A DNA stretch of 7,687 bases. It comes from Deltaproteobacteria bacterium (GTDB lineage Bacteria; Desulfobacterota; DSM-4660; Desulfatiglandales; Desulfatiglandaceae). The translations under genes were made by a program, and so were the position numbers. Under the pieces are notes generated by a model, which saw only the letters and a list, made by a program, of their open reading frames with translations, did not search any database and was not told the DNA's origin. The stretch covers positions 1-7,687 of the forward strand of contig JABGPV010000202.1 in NCBI GenBank assembly GCA_018644785.1. Direction: 5' to 3'. Position 1 is the first letter of the stretch, and every line of letters starts with the position of its first letter. Of the stretch, positions 1,446 through 7,409 are shown piece after piece.

Positions 1446-4400
1446 ATGTTAAAGAAAGCCATTATCGTCCTGCTGATCGGCTTGTCGATCTTTGCCGTAA
1501 TGCATTTTATCTCTTCACAAACGCGACTTTTCCTGGGGATCGAACGAAATCTGCTAAACGGCCTTTTTTTCCTGCGGGAGCCCGATGTTCATGAACCCAA
1601 CCCACTGGTATCTCAGGAGGTCGTCCTCCTGGGATTTGATGAAGATGCCATTGCATACATTGGGAAATGGCCCTGGAAACGCGACGTCCACGCGCAAATG
1701 CTGAACAACCTGGAGAAGTATTCGCCAAGAACCATCATGTTTGATGTGGTCTTTATCAAGAATGAAACCATTCCCCCGTTTTTATCAAAAAAATTGACAC
1801 CTGAGCCGAACCTTCTGCTCAAAGTGGAAAAAGCCTTCAATGAAATGGACCGGGCGTTCTCTGAAGCGCTTGAAAAATACGATAATGTGTTTCTGGACGT
1901 CCAGCTGGTGGAACACCCCAGGCCTGATCTTCCCAAAGCCTACCTGAGCCGCATCCTTTTTAACGAGCAAATCTTAAAGGACTATTCGCTTCCTCTCAAA
2001 AACAACCGAAGCCTCCTGATGTTTCATTCTCTCGAACCTGTTTTGAGCGAATTCATCTCCAGTGCCCACCCGGCCATTGTCAACGTGCTTCCGGACGATG
2101 ACGATGTAACCCGCATGTTCCCACTTTACTACACCTACAAAATGAGTGACCGAACAATCCGGAACGTGTTTACAGCGACCCTTGTCCTGGTCCAGCGATA
2201 TTATCGTGTAAACAATGAAAATGTTTCCATCACACACGATAAAGTTGTTCTTTCCGCGGCTAAGATACCGACCCTGGACCCAATAACGCACCAGCTGGAG
2301 GTGTTCGAAAAAGAGTTTAAATGGTTAAAACACAAGATTTTGAACCCGGTTCCGCCCAAAGGCTATCCATACAACCGGAATCTGTTCCGATTGCTGCTGA
2401 ATCGGCTGAAAATGGAAACCGAACCTGATGTGAAAACACCCCCTTTTCCCATCCATTTGCTCAAGAAAACCGGGGGGTTTGAGATTCTGGACGGTTGGGA
2501 AATTCTTGATGCAGCACAAAAGGGTGCAGCAGTAAAAATTCAGATGGTTATTTACGAAGAAGGGACCATTGAAATCAAAACCCCGGTGCCGGGGTTCAGC
2601 TATATCAATTATGCGGCCACGGAAAAGCGTTATTCCATGGACAATGAAACCGGGGTGCCCAAAATGTTCAACACGGTGCCCACAAAGAGCTACGGCGAAG
2701 TCTACTCAATGGATCCCCTGCCTGAAATCCCGTTGATGGATGCCTCGGGTCGGATCAAAGAGGGGTATGACACGCGTGCTCTTGAAAAATGGTTTATCGC
2801 CTTTTGTGAAAAACAGTCCTATCAAGCCTACAATCAGGCCGCTCAAGACCTGGGAGATGAGGCCCAGGACGAGGTTCGCTTGCAGGAATATTTGAATCGC
2901 CATTCTGAAAAAGGAAAATATTTTTTCTATTCATATTATTTCATGAACGCCGATGCACCGCCCGGTATGCTGCGGCCCCTGATTGACCAGTACCCTGATT
3001 TCGGCACGGAGGCAGGTCAAGACCGGGAAGATTTTCTAAGTGACAAGCTGATGATCCAGGACCTCATGAAGGTAACCATGGTGCAGTTTCAGCAATATTA
3101 CAATAAATTTGTTTTTGCCGGGGCAACAGCACGGATCTTGGGGGATATTCAGCAGACACCCTACGGCGCCATGAATGGCATTAACACGCTTATCAGCTCA
3201 TTTAATACGGTCATTACCCGAAACGAGCTGATCCTATCTGCCTATGTTCCCAATTTTGATTTACTCCTGCTGCTGGGGGTCTGCCTTTTTTGCTGTTTTG
3301 TTTACGGCTTCACCAGTATTCGCATCAGCAGTGTTATCTTCATCATACTTCTTCTGGGAACCCTGATTTCCAGTTTTGCTCTTTTCAGCATAAGAAACCT
3401 GGTCTTGACCACCACGCCTTTAGTGTTTTCCAACGTCTTGATTTTCGGTGGCATTATCGTGCTTAAGGTTTTGACGGAACAAAAAGACAAGAAATTTTTA
3501 AAAACGACTTTTTCCAGCTACCTAGCGCCTGAGATTATCGATGAAATGTACCGGAATAAGACCATGCCGACCCTGGGCGGAGAGGCCAGACCCATTACCG
3601 CCTACTTCACCGATATTCAAAGCTTTTCCACCTTTTCCGAAAAATTGACGGCCGATCAGCTGGTGGAGTTGATCAACGAGTACCTCTCAGCCATGACGGA
3701 TATTCTCATCAACGAAATGGGGACCCTTGACAAATACGAAGGGGATGCCATTATTGCCTTTTTCGGGGCGCCCATGGAAGTTCCCGACCACGCTCTCAGG
3801 GCGTGCCGTGTGGCTGTTTCCATGCAGGGGGCACTCACGGGCCTCTGCAAAAAATGGAAAAATGAAAAACAGAATCCCAATGATCCGGACCGCAATACCA
3901 AAAGCCTTGATGCCACGGAGTGGGAACCGAGCGATAAATGGCCGTTAATCGTTCATTCCATGAAGATGCGCGTGGGGGTCAATACGGGTGAAATCGTGGT
4001 TGGCAATATGGGAAGCGCCATGCGGATGAACTACACCATGATGGGAGATCCTGTAAACCTGGCAGCCAGGCTCGAGGAGGCTGGAAAGCAGTACGGCGTT
4101 TACATCCTGGTCAGCGAAGATACCCTGAACTGTGAAATCACCGATAACAGTGGTAACACAAAACAGGTGTTTGACATGGTGGAAGTTCGTTTTATTGACA
4201 CCATCGCCGTGGTGGGAAAATCGGAACCGGTTCGGGTCTATGAGCTATGTGCCATGAAAGGCGGCCTGACCCCGGGGGAAAAGGACTTAATAACGCGGTT
4301 CGACCGGGGGATGAACCATTATCTCAACATGGAGTGGGACCAGGCCATTGAAGAATTTGAAAAAGCAGTAAAAATTGAACGGATTCCCGATGGAAAAACC

Positions 4401-4505
4401 ACGCCAAGCCAGGTTTATATCGACCGTTGCCGGGGCTGCAAGGAAAGTCCTCCCGTGGCACCCGGAGAGACATGGGACGGTGTTTGCCGTTTGACAAAAA
4501 AATAG
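1446..4505 (+). CDS. CHASE2-domain membrane adenylate cyclase (class III)
   Basis: A 1019-residue receptor cyclase predicted to make cAMP from ATP in response to a periplasmic signal. Residues 5-22 form the first membrane segment. A CHASE2 sensor follows, with its typical opening VVLLGFDEDAIA (59-70), GKWPWKRD (73-80) and IMFDVVF (97-103), and its typical close FAGATARILGDI (557-568). Three more membrane segments lie at about 604-622, 626-648 and 652-674, placing the C-terminus in the cytoplasm. The catalytic domain spans about 715-935. Metal-binding Asp723 is in YFTDIQSFS and Asp767 in DKYEGDAI. Lys763 and Thr864 occupy the substrate-selecting positions. Asn871 and Arg875, in NLAARLE, match the transition-state pair. 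Lys plus Thr, rather than Lys plus Asp, is the class IIIb pattern. All catalytic residues are present, so it should be active. A single TPR-like helix pair (about 948-977) and a Cys-containing tail end the protein. The periplasmic region of about 575 residues is longer than a usual CHASE2 domain, with extra sequence at about 285-545; the catalytic domain also has a polar insert at about 803-835. No partner gene is adjacent. Confidence 0.93.
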   Translation: MLKKAIIVLLIGLSIFAVMHFISSQTRLFLGIERNLLNGLFFLREPDVHEPNPLVSQEVVLLGFDEDAIAYIGKWPWKRDVHAQMLNNLEKYSPRTIMFDVVFIKNETIPPFLSKKLTPEPNLLLKVEKAFNEMDRAFSEALEKYDNVFLDVQLVEHPRPDLPKAYLSRILFNEQILKDYSLPLKNNRSLLMFHSLEPVLSEFISSAHPAIVNVLPDDDDVTRMFPLYYTYKMSDRTIRNVFTATLVLVQRYYRVNNENVSITHDKVVLSAAKIPTLDPITHQLEVFEKEFKWLKHKILNPVPPKGYPYNRNLFRLLLNRLKMETEPDVKTPPFPIHLLKKTGGFEILDGWEILDAAQKGAAVKIQMVIYEEGTIEIKTPVPGFSYINYAATEKRYSMDNETGVPKMFNTVPTKSYGEVYSMDPLPEIPLMDASGRIKEGYDTRALEKWFIAFCEKQSYQAYNQAAQDLGDEAQDEVRLQEYLNRHSEKGKYFFYSYYFMNADAPPGMLRPLIDQYPDFGTEAGQDREDFLSDKLMIQDLMKVTMVQFQQYYNKFVFAGATARILGDIQQTPYGAMNGINTLISSFNTVITRNELILSAYVPNFDLLLLLGVCLFCCFVYGFTSIRISSVIFIILLLGTLISSFALFSIRNLVLTTTPLVFSNVLIFGGIIVLKVLTEQKDKKFLKTTFSSYLAPEIIDEMYRNKTMPTLGGEARPITAYFTDIQSFSTFSEKLTADQLVELINEYLSAMTDILINEMGTLDKYEGDAIIAFFGAPMEVPDHALRACRVAVSMQGALTGLCKKWKNEKQNPNDPDRNTKSLDATEWEPSDKWPLIVHSMKMRVGVNTGEIVVGNMGSAMRMNYTMMGDPVNLAARLEEAGKQYGVYILVSEDTLNCEITDNSGNTKQVFDMVEVRFIDTIAVVGKSEPVRVYELCAMKGGLTPGEKDLITRFDRGMNHYLNMEWDQAIEEFEKAVKIERIPDGKTTPSQVYIDRCRGCKESPPVAPGETWDGVCRLTKK

Positions 4506-4637
4506 ACCCCACCCATCAATTTTTCCGTGATTTATCGGCGCTGATGTTTTAGGTTGTACTCCGCCATTGCCATATTGCCTATAACCCTGGGGCAAAAAAC
4601 AAGAATATGAGGGTTGATCTTTAAAAATGAGCGTGAA

Positions 4638-4646
4638 AGAGGGGAG
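4638..4646 (+). promoter_or_regulatory. Ribosome binding site that fixes the selenoprotein start
   Basis: The purine tract AGAGGGGAG ends four bases before the ATG at 4651. It favours that start over the in-frame ATG at 4627, which has no comparable site and would put charged residues in front of the signal peptide. The 145-bp gap after the cyclase (4506-4650) shows no clear terminator hairpin and no convincing promoter. Confidence 0.7.
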
Positions 4647-4650
4647 CGAA

Positions 4651-5502
4651 ATGAAACTAAACCATTTGAAATTGTTGTTTTTATTCACCACAATCCTGTT
4701 TTTTGCCACGGCAACCACACCTTTTGCCGGGGTGGATATGGACCTTCAGCACAAGCTGACCATGGACAATCCGCCTCTGGATGTGGTGGCAACGCCGGAC
4801 GGAAAATATATATTTGTGTTGACGAACAAGGGAAACATTTCCGTGTTTGATCAAAACGGTGTTCTGCAAAATAAATTCCATGTGGGGGATCAAGTGGATC
4901 AAATCAAAATGGATCCACAAGGGAATCGGCTTTTCATCACCAGCCGCTCGGAAAAAACAATCCGGATTCTTGCCCTGGACTTTTTTGTGGAGATCAACAC
5001 GGCGGATGCGCCATTCAAAGGTCCCCGGAATGCACCGGTGGTTTTCGCTGTTTTCAGCGATTTCCAGTGACCTTATTGTGCCAGGCTGGTCCCTGAACTT
5101 GAGCAGTTGCTCAAGCAATACCCGAAATCGGTAAAGGTTGTTTTCAAGAATTTCCCCCTGAGCAATCACAAGTTCGCCCGAAAGGCGGCGGCAGCAGCCC
5201 TTGCTGCGGAGCGCCAGGGCAAATTCTGGGAATTCCATGACGAATTATTTAAACACTACAGAAACCTTAACGACAAAAAAATTGCTGACATCGCTCAGAA
5301 AGTGGGGCTGGATGAAGCTCAGTTCAACAAAGACCGTCAGGATCCGGCAATACTGGGTAAAATCAACCTGGACTATGAAGAAGGGCAGAAGATCGAGGTA
5401 AGAGGCATACCGGCGGTTTTCATGAACGGCAGGCGTATTAAGAACCGGGATATGAAAAATCTCAAGGACATGGTCGAAAAGCAATTGGAAAAGGCCCGAT
5501 AG
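4651..5502 (+). CDS. Predicted selenoprotein: exported DsbA-like thioredoxin-fold protein, U-P-Y-C site (TGA at 5068-5070 read as Sec)
   Basis: Read through one in-frame TGA, this is a continuous 283-residue protein. Residues 1-27 are a Sec signal peptide with a long hydrophobic core and a plausible cut after PFAG. Residues 43-68 and 82-108 look like two beta-propeller (YncE/NHL-like) repeats: VATPDGKYIFVLT and KMDPQGNRLFITS. Residues about 118-283 are a DsbA-like thioredoxin domain. The strand VVFAVFSDFQ (130-139) is followed by codon 140 TGA and then PYCARLVPEL. The redox site is thus U140-P-Y-C143 where relatives carry C-x-x-C. The cis-proline loop is GIPAVFMNG (Pro254). Frame is kept on both sides and no domain residues are missing, so decay or frameshift explains it poorly. 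A periplasmic thiol-disulfide oxidoreductase role is inferred; whether it oxidises, reduces or isomerises is not visible. Without selenocysteine insertion it would yield a useless 139-residue product, and gene callers may restart at TTG 5107. The stop lies 7 bp from the convergent glycosylase gene. Confidence 0.87.
5068..5070 (+). other. In-frame TGA, predicted selenocysteine codon
   Basis: This TGA is codon 140 of the DsbA-like gene. It falls exactly at the first position of the C-P-Y-C redox motif, and the reading frame continues unchanged for 143 more residues to a TAG at 5500-5502. Replacement of the attacking redox Cys by Sec is the commonest pattern among thioredoxin-fold selenoproteins. 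Confidence 0.85.
5082..5095 (+). promoter_or_regulatory. Candidate bacterial SECIS hairpin, proximal
   Basis: CAGG (5082-5085) pairs with CCTG (5092-5095) around the loop CTGGTC. The GGUC in the loop lies 18-21 nt after the TGA, close in sequence and distance to the GGUC loop of the E. coli fdhF SECIS. The stem is only 4 bp, so it is weaker than the distal hairpin; the two can form together. Confidence 0.45.
5098..5115 (+). promoter_or_regulatory. Candidate bacterial SECIS hairpin, distal
   Basis: CTTGAGC (5098-5104) and GCTCAAG (5109-5115) form a perfect 7-bp stem with loop AGTT. The loop has G at its second position and begins 35 nt after the TGA, within the usual range for bacterial SECIS elements. 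It lies inside the coding sequence, as bacterial elements do. This is the most stable small hairpin I see near the TGA. Confidence 0.5.
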
Positions 5503-6609: not shown

Positions 6610-6999
6610 ATGCCATACGATGGTGGAGGAGATTCAGGCTTTTTTAAGGGTTTCCTGTTCGGCGGCCTTATCGGTGCAATAGCCGCGCTGCTTCTTGCCC
6701 CCAAAACAGGCAGGGAGATGCGCGAAGACATTTCCAGGCGCAGCCGGGAATTGAAAGATGATGTTGAACTGAAACTGGAACAGGCGGTAAAAAGGGCCGA
6801 GGACATTCTCGCTGAAAACCGGCAAAGACTTGAAAATTTCAAAAACGAGGCAAAAGAAAGCTTAGAGGACCTGGAAGAAAAAGCCGCATCGAAATATACG
6901 GAAAGCAAAGATGCCATCAAAAAAGAAAAAGGCCGTATCAAAGAGGCCGTAAACGCCGGTGTGGCCGCCTACAAGGATGAGAAAGAATCGAAATCCTGA
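6610..6999 (+). CDS. YtxH-domain membrane-anchored coiled-coil protein
   Basis: A 129-residue protein of the YtxH family. A glycine-rich membrane segment spans about 11-30 (FLFGGLIGAIAALLLAP) and runs into the family motif LAPKTG at 29-34. Residues 35-118 are highly charged, rich in Lys, Glu and Ala, and should form a long amphipathic or coiled-coil helix. The ribosome site AAAGGAG (6597-6603) overlaps the ferredoxin stop codon, which suggests translational coupling. In Bacillus subtilis, ytxH sits with ytxG (DUF948) in a general-stress operon; the same pairing occurs here with the next gene. The biochemical function of the family is not established. Confidence 0.88.
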   Translation: MPYDGGGDSGFFKGFLFGGLIGAIAALLLAPKTGREMREDISRRSRELKDDVELKLEQAVKRAEDILAENRQRLENFKNEAKESLEDLEEKAASKYTESKDAIKKEKGRIKEAVNAGVAAYKDEKESKS

Positions 7000-7025: not shown

Positions 7026-7409
7026 ATGGATATTTCCACCAGCGTTATGTTGATTGCCGGGTTACTGTTGGTGAATACCATTTTCCTGGCGGTTTTTCTG
7101 GTTAAGGCTTTCAAAGCGTTTTCAGAAGCTCAGAAACTGTTTGAGGCAGCCAGGCTGCAACTTGTGCCCATCACCCATGATGTAACCCGGATTACCACTG
7201 AGGTAAGAGGGATACTCACATCCGTTCAAAAGGATCTGGACAAGGTTGGCGACAGCCTGGATCATGTCAGGGACACCACACGAAACCTGAAGGAATTTGA
7301 GTACATGATTCAGGAACGGATACAGGAACCGCTCCTGGAAATAACAACCCTTTTGTCGGCTCTGATAAAGGGAGGACGGGTTTTCTGGCAGACGCTGTTC
7401 CGAAAATGA
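7026..7409 (+). CDS. DUF948-domain (YtxG-like) membrane protein
   Basis: A 127-residue protein with one N-terminal membrane segment at about 6-28, followed by a long helical region with methyl-accepting-protein-like heptads (VTRITTEVRGILTSVQKDL, 53-71). This layout and the neighbouring YtxH gene identify DUF948. It is 26 bp downstream of the YtxH stop, on the same strand, so it belongs to the same probable operon. The ribosome site is weak (AGGTG, about 9 bases before the ATG). It likely associates with the YtxH protein at the membrane; that is inferred from recurring pairing. The stop lies 7 bp from the convergent cysK end. Confidence 0.85.
   Translation: MDISTSVMLIAGLLLVNTIFLAVFLVKAFKAFSEAQKLFEAARLQLVPITHDVTRITTEVRGILTSVQKDLDKVGDSLDHVRDTTRNLKEFEYMIQERIQEPLLEITTLLSALIKGGRVFWQTLFRK

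Follow-up and report, generated by a model that had tools for sequence, protein, structure and literature searches.

A probable DsbA-like selenoprotein gene with an in-frame TGA and a predicted propeller-like N-terminal domain

The window (the whole stretch of 7,687 nucleotides analysed here) carries on its forward strand a gene, 4651..5502, whose in-frame TGA at 5068..5070 is almost certainly read as selenocysteine (Sec), and which would encode a DsbA-like selenoprotein. The evidence comes from sequence comparison and consists of the reading frame, the redox motif, a hairpin with covarying pairs downstream of the TGA, purifying selection on both sides of the TGA, and Sec machinery in the genomes of close relatives. 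An earlier note on this DNA had predicted a real Sec codon, and the prediction is supported by the alternation of TGA and Cys at one codon among relatives, by the covarying hairpin and by the intact downstream frames.

Gene, reading frame and redox motif

All features described below lie on the forward (+) strand. Read through the TGA, the frame 4651-5502 (283 codons) would give a protein of 283 residues, followed by a TAG stop, and the TGA is the sole interruption. An in-frame ATG at 4627, upstream of 4651, is a possible alternative start, and a Shine-Dalgarno-like stretch was noticed by eye at about 4638-4646. The frame is open for 150 codons upstream of the TGA and for 142-143 codons downstream; in random DNA of equal base composition, 142 stop-free codons after the TGA would be expected with p ∼ 4e-4.

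The predicted selenocysteine, residue 140, would be the first residue of a U-P-Y-C motif that follows FSDFQ directly, which is the placement that the earlier note had pointed out. Its partner Cys143 (codon TGT, 5077..5079) and the proline of the cis-Pro loop, Pro254 in RGIP (5410..5412), are both invariant in a 36-row protein alignment, for which 35 homologs were picked from 120 listed matches. The read-through product scored 83.1 bits against Pfam DSBA (PF01323, cut-off 25.6) and 81.4 bits against Thioredoxin_4 (cut-off 23.2), with the DsbA/thioredoxin-fold catalytic domain at residues 112-282 (4984..5496). An intact thioredoxin-type domain with its cis-Pro loop had been claimed for the downstream part, and RGIP and the two scores agree with this.

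In a mechanical ORF list, the gene appears as two pieces, a 147-aa ORF (4627-5070) and a 131-aa ORF (5107-5502, with a TTG start), which is the annotation as two fragments that had been foreseen. The description of two ORFs in the same frame, separated by the TGA, holds for the frame and the TGA and fails for an "ORF 5071-5502", the listed downstream start being 5107. Because TTG 5107 is the first listed start after the TGA, the downstream piece alone would be without U-P-Y-C. Database homologs are single continuous chains, mostly of 280-310 residues among the 120 matches listed. Any gene caller unaware of selenocysteine would break up this protein, and also its TGA-bearing relatives, just as the mechanical list does.

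A putative SECIS hairpin downstream of the TGA

A putative bacterial SECIS hairpin of 18 nt is located at 5098..5115, with a stem of 7 bp and a 4-nt loop (5105-5108); 34 nt (5071-5104) lie between the TGA and the apical loop. The earlier note had named neither this hairpin nor the N-terminal beta-propeller-like domain discussed further below. The bacterial SECIS model, as outlined in an excerpt of PMC13188914, has a loop of 3-9 nt, an upper stem of 4-16 bp, a G at loop position 1 or 2, a spacing of 16-37 nt between UGA and loop, and a folding energy of -7.5 kcal/mol or lower. Loop length, stem length and spacing of our hairpin are within these ranges. Its loop reads AGUU in the window and AGGU in the consensus of alignment A3, with the G at position 2 in both, and its energy is -8.9 kcal/mol for 5098-5115 and -14.3 kcal/mol for the first 48 nt downstream of the TGA. 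Folding of 5065-5120 gave a z-score of -2.20 (3 of 200 shuffles were as good), and a segment ending at 5110, which cuts the hairpin, showed no significant structure (z +1.28). At gathering scores, no Rfam family matched in the window.

Pairing in the hairpin follows the TGA. In the first 38 TGA rows, all seven pairs are present in 33, six in four, and two in the remaining one (L052). Among 33 Cys rows, seven pairs are present in delta proteobacterium NaphS2 (L004) alone, and all others have at most five. Seven TGA genes added later, which lay outside the definition of the hairpin, have 7, 7, 7, 7, 7, 7 and 6 pairs, and four later Cys genes have 5, 3, 5 and 5. Among these later TGA genes, L088 and L091-L094 have new compensatory changes. 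Repeats were counted once (L078, L079, L081 and L083-L086 are earlier loci, and L082 is L004), and the TGA set of 45 rows is without L097, a partial match with two TGA in which the codon is not aligned.

In these 45 rows, 96.8% of cells are paired, or 98.4% without L052. The latter has no hairpin, and its inclusion raises the apparent number of two-sided changes by one in alignments A1 and A3; counted without it, two-sided changes occur at 4 of the 7 pairs, a value equalled in 10 of 500 shuffles. Also without L052, the covariation score was reached by none of 500 shuffles, and slid registers paired in 20-48% of cells. As the hairpin lies within coding sequence, synonymous codons were redrawn at its six codons according to the combined codon use of 37 of these genes. 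Based on the redraw, one would expect all seven pairs in 0.41 and at least six pairs in 4.11 of the 45 TGA rows. In fact, 39 and 44 such rows were seen. This excess of pairing over the synonymous redraw indicates that the constraint acts on the RNA.

Another hairpin, closer to the TGA at 5082-5095 (loop CUGGUC, five pairs), was considered as SECIS and rejected, since it is paired in 49.5% of cells, versus 96.6% for 5098-5115, in the 38-row alignment A1.

The exceptional L052 (4033-4095), from bacterium TMED198, is a thioredoxin-like relative with TGA-P-H-C and no hairpin at the position used by the family. Its genome has a tRNA-Sec match, no SelA match, and no SelB or SelD above cut-off; another SECIS may be in use there, or something else. 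In the Cys forms L089, L090, L095 and L096, the loop still reads ACGT/AGGT and the stem is broken. These letters could be old SECIS relics or merely reflect a conserved peptide.

Sec and Cys forms in relatives, and their Sec machinery

A genome scan identified 70 loci that encode relatives. Of these, 37 carry TGA at the aligned codon and 33 carry TGC or TGT, with nothing else observed. TGA is found in L001 and L002, which are the nearest loci (87 and 88% identity, respectively), and in L003 (75% identical), and TGC in L004 of NaphS2 (71% identical). The homologs had been expected to show Cys at the position of the TGA, and the 70 loci do have either Cys or TGA there, in a motif that is mostly x-P-[YFH]-C, with exceptions in the next residues in L010, L014, L016, L033 and L065. 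After the TGA, the frame extends over at least 140 codons in 36 of 38 TGA rows, and is shortened in L026 (115 codons) and L033 (75 codons). The earlier note had named a resequenced TGC or TGT at 5068, or unrelated stops and frameshifts in related strains, as observations that would speak against Sec; neither is borne out by the relatives, which share the same TGA, the intact downstream frame in these 36 rows, and the covarying hairpin. L026 and L009 are two TGA-containing paralogs on one chromosome (CP070746.1).

In the group of G003, the genome of one of the nearest relatives, 24 of 46 genomes searched had a match: 14 near-full-length with one TGA, 5 without a stop, and 5 partial or distant. 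Matches were also present in 678 plasmid records, all below 60% identity (best 5 of 678 listed).

For the part after the TGA, dN/dS between the window and L001, L002, L003, L004 and L080 was 0.161, 0.166, 0.151, 0.173 and 0.149, respectively; for the part before it (residues 25-139), the values were 0.263, 0.121, 0.286, 0.118 and 0.196. Low dN/dS on both sides of the TGA is indicative of a protein under selection, not of a decaying gene.

In a maximum-likelihood tree of 52 rows, built with position 140 masked, at least six changes between Sec and Cys are needed, five of which are forced by starred (well supported) branches. The window, L001 and L002 form a starred clade, which belongs to a starred group of five together with L003 and NaphS2. 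Tree counts alone are without direction, and NaphS2 is best read as a change from Sec to Cys with the hairpin kept as a relic; SECIS remnants are reported for FdhA and HesB-like proteins in an excerpt of PMC1794560. The family thus offers a natural set of Sec/Cys pairs, including NaphS2 with its hairpin still present, so that costs and benefits of selenium in disulfide chemistry would be testable among close relatives.

Sec factors were scored in the 44 genomes behind these loci, 36 of them TGA-bearing and 8 with Cys. Overall, tRNA-Sec was above cut-off in 37, SelB in 31, SelA in 40 and SelD in 37. The corresponding numbers are 30, 26, 32 and 31 for the TGA-bearing genomes (all four factors in 21, at least one missing at the cut-off in 15), and 7, 5, 8 and 6 for the Cys genomes. 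As the machinery is common in both groups, its presence alone cannot tell Sec from Cys genes. The tRNA-Sec search, in which up to 74 candidates were scored per genome, has a loose cut-off, being passed by 5 of 14 control genomes (SelA by 2 of 14), though the 37 of the 44 genomes that pass it have scores between 60 and 79 bits.

In G001, G002 and G003, the nearest relatives, ARAGORN confirmed a tRNA-Sec with anticodon tca. In G002 and G003, this tRNA is accompanied by full SelA and SelB. Their SelD genes also contain one in-frame TGA each (translated as GSGU), which is an internal sign that TGA stands for selenocysteine in these genomes. In G001, the closest relative (a MAG of 2.2 Mb), tRNA-Sec and SelB are present, SelA is represented by a 51-residue fragment at the end of a contig, and no SelD was found above cut-off. 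For the source organism of the window, incorporation of selenium is predicted. In NaphS2, SelA, SelB and a SelD that contains one TGA were found, and no tRNA-Sec above cut-off (best candidate 46.9 of 47 bits, only 77 nt long). Three genomes speak against the Sec reading: in the chromosome-level G011, SelA, SelB and SelD were found, and no tRNA-Sec above cut-off, and in G026 (a chromosome-level MAG of 2.2 Mb) and G044, tRNA-Sec was the one factor above cut-off. For G026, incomplete assembly or divergent factors are suggested. L027 (6388-6450), from G026, has a TGA and a 7-pair hairpin despite the lack of SelA, and of SelB and SelD above cut-off, in that genome.

If the gene were a pseudogene, or if the TGA were a sequencing error, the TGA would represent a nonsense change of an ancestral Cys codon. 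TGA is one base away from TGC and TGT, a Cys codon is present in 33 of the 70 relatives, and L026 and L033 have shortened frames after the TGA, all as one would then expect. Such an origin is nevertheless very improbable in view of the recurrence of TGA at this codon in 37 of the 70 loci, the intact downstream frame with dN/dS of 0.15-0.17, and the RNA-level constraint on the hairpin. We attach equally little weight to two separate proteins, a propeller-fragment protein ending at 5070 and a reinitiated thioredoxin-like protein. Sec insertion is often in competition with termination, so that some short product is likely, and the mechanical list does show two ORFs; however, the earliest in-frame start listed downstream of the TGA is TTG 5107, reinitiation there would drop U-P-Y-C, and the database homologs form one chain, mostly of 280-310 residues among the 120 listed.

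Decoding of UGA as a residue other than selenocysteine, by a Trp code or general read-through, appears least credible of all. It would account for two database homologs, P0013 and P0014, which have W at the Sec position (FQWAYCARL); our guess is that this W probably comes from a gene caller using code 4. Since U may be shown as C or W in protein databases, the position-140 letters of database proteins were left out of the Sec/Cys counts. Against a Trp reading, two other genes in the window stop at TGA (6997-6999 and 7407-7409), the aligned codon is always TGA, TGC or TGT in the 70 DNA-checked loci, and a SECIS-type hairpin and Sec machinery would serve no purpose in Trp read-through.

Predicted mechanism, N-terminal domain and known systems

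With the TGA read as selenocysteine, SelB would bind the hairpin, 34 nt after the UGA at 5068, and deliver Sec-tRNA(UCA) to that codon; ribosomes passing it would produce a protein of 283 residues whose DsbA fold holds a U-P-Y-C active site. The attacking selenolate would be Sec140 and the resolving thiol Cys143, with Pro254 as the cis-Pro. The protein is probably exported to the periplasm: its N-terminus is hydrophobic as judged by eye, suggesting a probable signal peptide at about residues 1-26 (4651..4728), and a helix at residues 4-17 is present, with low confidence, in the structure model.

We consider the chances about even that the protein is a periplasmic thiol/disulfide reductase or isomerase with DsbD-type electron supply, rather than a DsbB-coupled oxidase, a catalytic direction that is read from partners in mostly draft genomes. 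Among 13 relatives tested, a DsbD-type transporter was found in 11, DsbB in 1 and VKOR in 5. DsbB and VKOR were not found in G001-G004 or G080, which are mostly drafts, and G001 and G026 had no matches for DsbD, DsbB or VKOR.

The N-terminal domain, residues 42-108 (4774..4974), has seven predicted strands that resemble two beta-propeller blades. Because the DsbA domain fills the VIA list of the whole model, the N-terminal domain was predicted and searched alone. Foldseek/VIA matches to its model were propellers and the 80-residue designs 8pr9 and 6tjb, with TM-scores by target of 0.74 and 0.71 over approximately the whole design length and modest E-values. Pfam propeller matches were weak and below the cut-offs; a profile search of the PDB also gave matches. 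The domain is predicted to be a two-bladed beta-propeller fragment and, going by the model, might serve as an oligomerisation platform.

A more far-reaching scenario, which we regard as speculative and rather unlikely, is that the two-blade fragment is unable to close on itself, and that chains assemble a complete propeller ring bearing several Sec DsbA domains. Since read-through of the UGA and termination compete, the availability of selenium would then determine how many bare ring subunits (139 aa) are made relative to catalytic ones. If true, nature would have its own version of the designed propeller fragments that self-assemble, and the ring would be a new route to a multivalent disulfide isomerase. 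The designs Cake2 (6tjb) and v13Bagel2 (8pr9) resemble the N-terminal domain in fold only, and are designed, unlike the natural domain; Cake2 and Bagel2 are two-bladed and self-assemble. The designed comparison structures also include 6r5z, a "9-bladed beta-propeller formed by three 3-bladed fragments". In the open-licence papers searched, we found no selenoprotein with a propeller domain. The fusion with a propeller fragment would allow an inexpensive test of the ways in which DsbA-type enzymes might gain oligomeric scaffolds.

DsbA-like selenoproteins of Deltaproteobacteria are already known. Judging from excerpts of the respective papers, there were 4 sequences in 2006, with Anaeromyxobacter dehalogenans, Desulfovibrio desulfuricans and Desulfotomaculum reducens as hosts (PMC1794560), 9 sequences from the Sargasso Sea (PMC1088965), and 45 selenoproteins in 41 organisms (PMC5029168, Table 3); "Dde_1263 plus upstream" is named in PMC1914089, and a "DsbA-like protein form 1" with PF01323 and UxxC in PMC13188914. 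DsbA is not mentioned in PMC8318568 and PMC12013277, and nothing was found on a UPYC motif in the open-licence papers searched. Compared by description, the published proteins are alike in their PF01323 fold, U-x-x-C, Cys homologs, downstream SECIS-type hairpin and Deltaproteobacteria hosts. The window protein combines the features that place a protein in this class, a DSBA/thioredoxin-fold domain and a TGA at motif position 1 with Cys homologs. What may be new is the extra propeller-fragment-like domain, an arrangement worth a look.

The best NCBIfam match (residues 120-263) is NF041057, the Rcas_1661 family thioredoxin-like (seleno)lipoprotein, to which an excerpt of PMC13188914 assigns a "DsbG-like protein". 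With 68.5 bits versus a cut-off of 190, the window protein is not a member, and its N-terminus, unlike that of these lipoproteins, is without a Cys for a lipobox. The DsbA-like oxidoreductases ScsC, alpha-DsbA2, BdbD and 3gyk differ in that their N-terminal extensions are not beta-propeller blades. These proteins have Cys in place of Sec, and the extension of ScsC is a helical oligomerisation stalk.

Operon partners were searched in 44 loci and the window, and no redox partner gene was present among the identified recurring neighbours. In the window, L003 and L004 alike, the gene is preceded by a CHASE2-cyclase gene and followed by UDG-like and YtxH genes; in L004, an additional 517-aa ORF is interposed. 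In the window, the upstream gene (1446-4505) encodes a 1019-aa protein with CHASE2 and adenylate/guanylate cyclase domains. ORFs of PhoH and YbeY-PdxJ type follow the gene in many Desulfobulbales loci, with one ORF of each type identified by Pfam. An ORF in L022 (1907-3223) comprises both YbeY (residues 74-190) and PdxJ (residues 203-434), and ORFs of the same YbeY-PdxJ cluster, about 380-440 aa long, are near the DsbA-like gene in 18 loci, the one in L022 being Pfam-identified. The YbeY-PdxJ fusion may be common in Desulfobulbales.
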